Shown one piece after another: positions 37,177-39,154 of a DNA stretch of 64,000 nucleotides. Under the pieces are notes generated by a model. It was not told the DNA's origin. It did not search any database and saw nothing but the letters and a program-made list of their open reading frames with translations. The number at the start of each line of letters is the position of its first letter. The stretch's first letter is position 1. The DNA lies in the NCBI RefSeq assembly GCF_000149955.1, contig NC_030994.1:1218151-1282150 (forward strand), read 5' to 3'. The position numbers were made by a program, and so were the translations under genes. Origin of the DNA: Fusarium oxysporum f. sp. lycopersici 4287 (lineage: Eukaryota > Ascomycota > Sordariomycetes > Hypocreales > Nectriaceae).

Positions 37177-39154
37177 ATGGACCCTGTATCCCTTGCCGGC
37201 TTGGCGCTGGGAGTTGCTTCCATCAGCCTCCAGATCTACACTGGATGTATTCAAGGTAATTCTAGCTCATCGTAACCAGCATAACATGTGAAATTGACAT
37301 CCATTAGGGATACAGCTTCTTGTTACGGCATTGGGCTATGAGGATGAGTGCAAATATCTCAATCTCCGTCTCAGGATGGAACAGCAGCGCCTGTTTTGCT
37401 GGAGTGAAGCTTCTGGCCTGCTTGACCTTGATGCCAAGAACCAAGACAAGGTTCTCAACTCAAACGTATTCAATCTTCACCGCCAGACTGTAATTGATCT
37501 GCTTGTCCAAATTCAGTGTCTCTTCAATGAGTTCACAGAGTACCAGCAGAAGCACAATAACCTCTCCGCGGTTGTGGATAAAGATGGTGTTTTGGATGCT
37601 CCGGAAAAAGATGCCAAGCTATCAAACTATCCTATGAGTGAAAAGAAGCGGAACTTCATCAAGAAAGCAATGGCTGGACTCAAGTCTAAATCATCAGAAA
37701 GCCTTACTAGGTTAAGGTGGACTTCATTTGACAAGCAAGGATTTGAAAAGTTGCTGGCCAAGTTTTCAGTTCTCAATGACAACATGACCAATATCCTCGA
37801 TCACTCCTTACAGGTCGAGATTCGCAATACTGTACAGGACACCAACCGTGGAGTCTTATTGCTCCATCACAAGATAGCCGATCTGAGTCATCTTGTGTTA
37901 GCTCTCAAGTCTCAGCTCGATGCAGGTTCCCGGGTTGGACCGTCGCAAATGTCCAAACTGGAAAGGGAGGCCAATGCTGACGCTCTGCGGCAATTGTCAA
38001 GATTAGCCAAGTTCAAGGCCTTCAATGAGACTATCGATCCCAAGTCAGATAGTCCAGCAGTCTTTGACGAAGCTGCTGCAAAGTTCCTCGATCTTGCAAA
38101 GCCGGGTCATCAGCGCAATCTATTCATCCCTCGATACCTCATAGAGCTAGACCCTGAGGTGGATGAATCAGATGCTCCACGGTGTGAGGCTTTCATGAAG
38201 ACAGCAGAAGGCAAGAAGAAGGTTTGGATTGAGTGGAAGGACTATGACAATACAGATACCCAACCAGGTTCGCTATCAAAGACCGATATCATTGAGAGAG
38301 TCCGAAAACTTGCTGCTTTGCTGAACCATAGTCCCAAGCCCGAGGCCTTTCGCACTCCTCACTGTCTGGGGTTCTTCGATAAAGCTGATCCCAACATCTC
38401 TGAGGATGACGTTGATATTCTAGATCGAAGACTCGGCCTCATCTTCGAGCGGCCATCCGACGATAATCTACAGACCTCACTCCCACCTGTTTCGCTCCGT
38501 GAGCTTCTTCAAGACCCAAAGGTCCGCAAGCCTCGTGTTACAGAACGAGTATACTTGGCACACGCTATCAGCAATTGTCTCCTCTACCTTCATGCTGTAC
38601 ACTGGCTACACAAGGGTCTTCGCAGTCATAATGTGTTATTCTTCCGGACACGTGATGACCACGTAGACTACCGCCAACCATATCTCTCAGGCTTCGATTT
38701 TTCACGACCTGGGGGATCAGATGAGATGACTGATGCCCCAGGAGATGACGCAGAGCATGATCTATACCGACATCCCAACGCCCAATCAAACCGTCGGCGA
38801 GATAGAGAGCGTTCGAAGAAGAGCTTCGACATTTATAGCCTGGGTGTCATTCTGGTCGAATTAGCACATTGGCGGCCGGTTGAGGACGTGCTAAGTATCG
38901 ATATACGGCGTGCGCGCGGGAGACCTGATGTTGTGCGTGGTGTTCGAGAGGCTCTACTAGAGGAAGACCGAGTCGCAGCAGTAGGTGCTGACATGGGAGA
39001 GCGATTTGAAGATGCAACACGGAAGTGTTTGGCTGGAGGCAAGGATTTGGGACTAAATGATGGAGATGATGAGACACGAGATGAAGTTGCTGAAAAGTTA
39101 TCTATGAAATTTTATGAGGACGTGGTAAAGCGATTGGAGGGCGTGGTCGTGTAG
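37177..39154 (+). CDS. HeLo-domain protein fused to a degenerate kinase (MLKL-like architecture)
   Basis: Two exons, 37177..37255 and 37308..39154, with a 52-nt intron. The product is 641 residues. The start MDPVSLAGLALGVASISLQIY, then IQLLVTALGYEDEC and LNLRLRMEQQRLFCWSEA, follows the HeLo domain of the HET-S prion-controlled cell-death protein; a helical region continues to about residue 230. Residues ~330-641 look kinase-like: IEWKDY in the position of the ATP-lysine strand, LLYLHAVHWLHKGLRSHNVLFF as the catalytic loop, SGFDFSRP where DFG is expected, and FDIYSLGVILVELAHWRP as helix F. The catalytic loop Asp is Gly and the DFG Asp is Gly, so phosphotransfer is unlikely. HeLo domains can insert in membranes and kill cells. 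A regulated cell-death or incompatibility role is inferred from domains only. Confidence 0.85.

Follow-up and report, generated by a model that had tools for sequence, protein, structure and literature searches.

A 641-amino-acid protein encoded within a 64,000-nucleotide stretch of the Fusarium oxysporum f. sp. lycopersici 4287 genome (contig NC_030994.1, positions 1,218,151 to 1,282,150; hereafter, the window) combines an N-terminal HeLo domain with a C-terminal kinase fold in which both catalytic aspartates are replaced by glycine. The anatomy of the protein and its status as a dead kinase are firm. We favour as its mechanism a two-domain switch that would work like animal MLKL, and assign it a probability of roughly 0.55. 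The original prediction, made from the sequence of the window, had proposed a fungal counterpart of MLKL, a HeLo killer gated by a pseudokinase instead of a prion fibre. What stands of it is the HeLo domain followed by a pseudokinase in the MLKL order with connecting helices, the family-wide catalytic loss and a prion domain sought and not found; what it had missed is a large family of such genes in the same genome, the occurrence of close relatives in many Sordariomycetes and Leotiomycetes, and a mention of the architecture in print.

The HeLo domain and its first helix

The Pfam HeLo profile PF14479 was matched over its full length (positions 1–205 of 205) by the relative P0001, which is 96% identical to the window protein (E = 2.4e-43, 148.8 bits versus a curated cut-off of 23.2), and was also matched by the exon 2 frame of the window alone (E = 1.4e-32, 113.6 bits). 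The HeLo structure of HET-s (PDB code: 2wvo) was returned as a profile match with an E-value of 7.2e-24. The proposed HeLo identity of the N-terminus is thereby upheld.

According to PMC3531502, HET-S attacks membranes with a segment of some 34 residues that is first buried and then exposed; the paper also notes that HeLo is found in numerous proteins next to domains yet to be characterised. In the window protein, residues 4–32 of helix 1 contain no Asp, Glu, Lys or Arg, and the same is true of 106 of the 125 close relatives whose initiator Met aligns with Met1. Helix 1 is the best conserved segment of the protein. Averaged across eight sequences, which we take from their organism names to be from Sordariales and Coniochaetales, identity to the window protein is 82% in residues 4–32, 65% in the remaining HeLo domain, 46% in the linker and 65% in the pseudokinase; for the full set of 76 other sequences with a length of 620 amino acids or more the corresponding values are 78%, 72–73%, 61% and 72%.

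The pseudokinase domain

The C-terminus folds as a kinase both in an AlphaFold model of P0001 and in fold searches, as originally supposed, with the fold beginning near residue 293–300 and not at residue 330. The model was built from 124 diverse sequences and replaced a poor one based on 62 near relatives (predicted local distance difference test score of 64). The protein terminates, in this model, just past the last predicted kinase helix. The C-lobe overlaps the Pfam domain DUF7580 (PF24476; residues 414–637 on P0001, 50.7 bits versus a cut-off of 27), for which no function is named. Neither HET-s nor MLKL is among the matches listed by the fold searches; this is not evidence of absence, because kinase entries fill the lists. 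The HET-s prion domain (PF11558) was not reported in exon 2 with an E-value limit of 1 or in P0001 with a limit of 0.1, in agreement with the earlier remark that the C-terminus carries no amyloid-type motif, and the same profile library detects PF11558 in two other genes of the genome (L002 and L003).

The motifs of the window protein are LHKGLRSHN (residues 460–468), SGFDFS (487–492) and FDIYSLGVIL (533–542). As proposed, the Asp of HRD and that of DFG are both Gly (G463 and G488) and helix F is kept with D534; the third residue of DFG is altered too, giving GFD. None of 121 aligned sequences (the window protein and the best 120 of 370 matches) departs from Gly at position 463 or 488, so the losses are neither sequencing error nor chance. 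A wider alignment of 322 rows comprised 312 relatives, nine frames from the same genome (L056, L058 and L059, which lack a nearby HeLo match, among them) and the window protein; L052, L054, L020–L031, L036 and L038 were left out. The DFG Asp column is Gly in all 322 rows, or in 321 after discounting P0129, an aberrant protein without kinase motifs whose letter in column 488 is a misalignment. Both Asp residues are gone in 317 of the 320 rows lettered at both sites, and the remaining three (P0183, P0188 and P0218) have the HRD Asp without the DFG Asp; a homologue with both motifs intact, which would have indicated an active kinase, was found in none of the 320.

The beta3 Lys is Lys in 301 and Arg in 14 of 321 rows, and the catalytic-loop Asn is kept in 313 of 320; a glycine-rich loop cannot be made out from the sequence ahead of K337. 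Among 214 close relatives, a set defined by search lists and not by a tree (31 of them were placed in the 70-row tree described below), 209 have GFD at the DFG site, four have GFE and one has GFG; the other 108 rows have GFE in 73 and GFD in 15. T501, located 11 residues past D490, is Thr in all 214 close relatives, and 103 of the 108 others carry Thr or Ser there. A separate alignment of 137 sequences (25 of the 120 proteins from the first search, all 100 from the second, 11 frames from the same genome and the window protein) shows HKG and GFE in the paralogue L052. About 8000 candidates were scored in each protein search, and the matches listed are the best 120 of 370, 100 of 100 and the best 120 of 511.

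Gene structure

The gene runs on the forward strand from an ATG at 37177 to a stop codon ending at 39154, the locus originally indicated, and a predicted intron gives the 641-residue product. Three splice options leave the frame open. That at 37256–37307 was chosen because relatives of 641 amino acids, such as P0001, read straight across it at the N-terminus. The best protein matches are from Fusarium (F. agapanthi, 96%; F. oxysporum f. sp. vasinfectum, 95%). Coordinates are summarized in Table 1.

Table 1. Features of the HeLo-pseudokinase gene, in window positions
Feature	Residues	Position	Strand	Basis
Exon 1	Met1 to codon 27 (first base)	37177..37255	+	Homologues with equal length and N-terminus
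Intron, GT-AG, 52 nt		37256..37307	+	Predicted from the window sequence and the length of homologues
Exon 2 with stop codon		37308..39154	+	Window sequence
HeLo domain (PF14479)	8-222	37198..37894	+	Pfam profile; HET-s HeLo structure 2wvo matched by profile
HeLo helix 1, split by intron	3-32	37183..37324	+	Helix in P0001 model; charge and conservation counts
Two connecting helices	216-235 and 243-269	37874..38035	+	P0001 model; likened to the MLKL brace by position only
Pseudokinase domain	300-641	38126..39151	+	Pfam, predicted model, fold search
Beta3 Lys	K337	38237..38239	+	Placed by the sequence WIEWK and a predicted strand at 328-338
HKG in place of HRD	461-463	38609..38617	+	Alignments
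GFD in place of DFG	488-490	38690..38698	+	Alignments
Activation-segment Thr, candidate phosphosite	T501	38729..38731	+	Conservation; phosphorylation inferred
Helix F motif FDIYSLGV, Asp kept	D534	38825..38848	+	Alignments

Distribution and evolution

Relatives with the same catalytic losses occur in many moulds, with close ones in many Sordariomycetes and Leotiomycetes; identities of at least 60% over the aligned part were obtained in Fusarium, Trichoderma, Metarhizium, Neurospora, Chaetomium and others. In a quick tree of 70 rows calculated from the pseudokinase columns, 14 rows that are presumably Sordariomycete, judging by organism name, make up one starred group (99), which nests in a starred group of 31 rows (100) together with presumed Leotiomycete and unlabelled rows. 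These groups fit vertical descent within the two classes. End branches measure 0.02–0.43 in the group of the gene versus 0.88–3.81 for seven paralogues from its own genome, the placement of several long paralogue branches being unsure; this contrast is mostly a sampling effect, because close relatives of the paralogues lie mostly outside the sample.

Slow evolution was considered as a special mark of the gene and dropped, since the paralogue L052 is similarly conserved in matched species pairs: 61% for L052 versus 63% for the gene in Podospora aff. communis, and 83% versus 89% in F. nematophilum. A third pair, from Ilyonectria, gave 36% versus 83% and is probably not a comparison of orthologues. 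What is supported is wide retention, not unusual slowness.

The HeLo-pseudokinase family of the genome

A search of the whole genome (61.2 Mb in 71 contigs, with the window at C9:1218151-1282150) returned 19 HeLo matches, 12 of which are followed at most 4 kb downstream on the same strand by a match to DUF7580 or to the window protein. The motifs were seen in eight of these 12 loci and three more are copies of one of the eight; L014 falls outside the count. Copies of a single paralogue account for four of the 12. These are L047, L048, L049 and L050 (on C3, C3, C6 and C70), identical to L047 over 813 bases, with L047 and L049 identical across all 3813 bases; one of the copies, at C3:3674838 (L016), has only the end of the HeLo match, in a frame of 478 amino acids.

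L002 and L003 are HET-S-like genes that pair HeLo with the HET-s 218–289 prion domain (PF11558), and L001 has HeLo fused to a NACHT-type NTPase, an all-in-one form of the NOD-like receptor (NLR). One genome thus holds amyloid-, NLR- and pseudokinase-linked HeLo proteins. A protein returned by the searches, P0171 (882 amino acids), is listed with HeLo, DUF7580 and PF01048, the last being another domain known from NLR effectors, here alongside a pseudokinase. Alignment of the nine DUF7580 loci L020, L021 and L025–L031 did not bring out the HK and GF[DE] motifs; these loci are perhaps more degenerate kinase folds, which would give DUF7580 a structural identity.

Genomic neighbourhood

Pfam scans of the 24 other open reading frames of at least 180 amino acids in the window gave no NACHT, NB-ARC, NLR or HET domain, although introns were unmodelled and a split gene could escape. 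An NLR partner beside the gene was therefore rejected, these frames having ordinary domains or none. The neighbours include an ABC transporter (28872), a Zn-cluster factor (32855), a kinase (42356), INSIG (48654), LON-RING (55435) and CoaE (60714).

Comparison with known systems

A 2016 PNAS paper reportedly linked HELL domains to MLKL. Fungal HELL proteins with kinase or pseudokinase domains are mentioned in one sentence of a review (PMC12881547), so the HeLo-pseudokinase architecture is already in print; the architecture is the same, and the available passages of that review do not single out any such gene, motif or conserved group. The family is not described in the accessible parts of PMC10197012, PMC9815663, PMC9262711, PMC5485727, PMC5613156 and PMC7885112. 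Among the open-licence PMC papers searched we found no paper on the HeLo-pseudokinase family, DUF7580 or fungal pseudokinases, and papers elsewhere may exist.

The protein shares with HET-S/HET-s of Podospora anserina (PDB codes: 2WVO, 2WVN, 2WVQ) the HeLo domain and an N-terminal membrane-type helix, but where HET-S has a C-terminal amyloid domain as its gate, the Fusarium protein has connecting helices and a pseudokinase. With animal MLKL (PDB codes: 4BTF, 4M68 and others) it shares the order of bundle, connecting helices and pseudokinase, the loss of HRD and DFG, the kept beta3 Lys and a conserved Thr in the activation segment; the fungal bundle is a putative killer. Human MLKL, in the sections available of PMC6013482 and PMC5104457, has GFE for DFG and HGK for HRD, keeps K230, and bears its RIPK3 sites T357/S358 6–7 residues after E351. 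Its GFE triplet is the commonest in the wider fungal family (73/108), whereas GFD prevails in the gene's own group (209/214). T501 is perhaps a functional equivalent of the RIPK3 sites. Unlike MLKL, the Fusarium bundle is HeLo by profile and the catalytic loop reads HKG rather than HGK. Profile scores against the PDB were 38.9 bits for IRAK4, 38.7 for BRAF and 36.3 for MLKL (2.2e-8); with IRAK4 and BRAF slightly ahead, no specific kinship to MLKL is shown. How homologues from fungi and plants relate to metazoan MLKL is described as unclear in PMC11476962.

Proposed mechanism and alternatives

In the MLKL-like switch that we favour, a kinase fold unable to transfer phosphate, joined by the two helices to the HeLo bundle, would keep that bundle closed at rest. 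A signal would be read at the pseudoactive site, either as phosphorylation of the activation segment, perhaps at T501, or as a ligand near K337, and would alter the shape of the pseudokinase and free the HeLo domains. The freed domains may then oligomerise and insert their uncharged helix 1 into the membrane, causing a leak. Such a gate would stand where HET-S has its amyloid and where other HeLo proteins of the same genome have an NLR.

Several observations weigh against this mechanism. We know of no fungal RIPK3 counterpart or RIPK3-type activator. Helix 1 is charge-free over residues 4–32 in just three of 74 other HeLo-pseudokinases, the other 71 having at least one charge there, and its hydropathy is moderate (best 19-residue Kyte-Doolittle mean of 1.54 versus 1.31 elsewhere). 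Many species have also retained the gene, and the Neurospora crassa orthologue P0108 is 63% identical, whereas animal MLKL is poorly conserved according to a passage of PMC11476962.

This retention would suit a conserved, non-lethal membrane protein, acting as a stable scaffold or as a membrane-remodelling switch while the fungus grows normally, at septa or endosomes for example, with killing lost or never present. Relatives at least 60% identical from Fusarium to Chaetomium, further relatives in Leotiomycetes, the single starred group formed by the 31 relatives in the tree, and the lack of an NLR or HET domain in the 24 other window frames of at least 180 amino acids are all consistent with such a role. 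However, conservation is highest in helix 1, which in HET-S is the part that attacks the membrane, and slow evolution is not special to the gene, L052 being about as conserved; as the argument from rate failed, we lowered our estimate slightly and regard a non-lethal role as unlikely, though it is the main rival. That the HeLo domain is instead a restraint or decoy, damping the remaining HeLo killers that the genome encodes, in the relation that non-toxic HET-s has to HET-S, appears improbable: HeLo-PF11558 genes (L002, L003) and a HeLo-NACHT gene (L001) are present, but no prion domain was found in the protein, which leaves the decoy no known interaction route. Some former pseudokinases act by an unusual route, and the beta3 Lys and the Asn of the catalytic loop, which almost every row retains, could likewise speak for an active enzyme with a membrane-targeting HeLo domain. 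The loss of both Asp residues in 317 of 320 rows, the lack of the DFG Asp in the other three and the lack of a visible glycine-rich loop before K337 make this very improbable.

Implications

It is conceivable, if doubtful, that a pseudokinase-gated bundle killer with a GF[D/E] site was ancestral to fungi and animals. The MLKL architecture would then predate animal necroptosis, and the family of this gene would be its fungal branch, a standing membrane switch kept across filamentous ascomycetes. Amyloids or NLRs gate the fungal HeLo killers known so far. Through its Neurospora crassa orthologue, the widely kept pseudokinase-linked group would make MLKL-type gating in fungi testable in a laboratory organism, and with it whether the animal and fungal versions come from a shared two-domain ancestor or arose twice.
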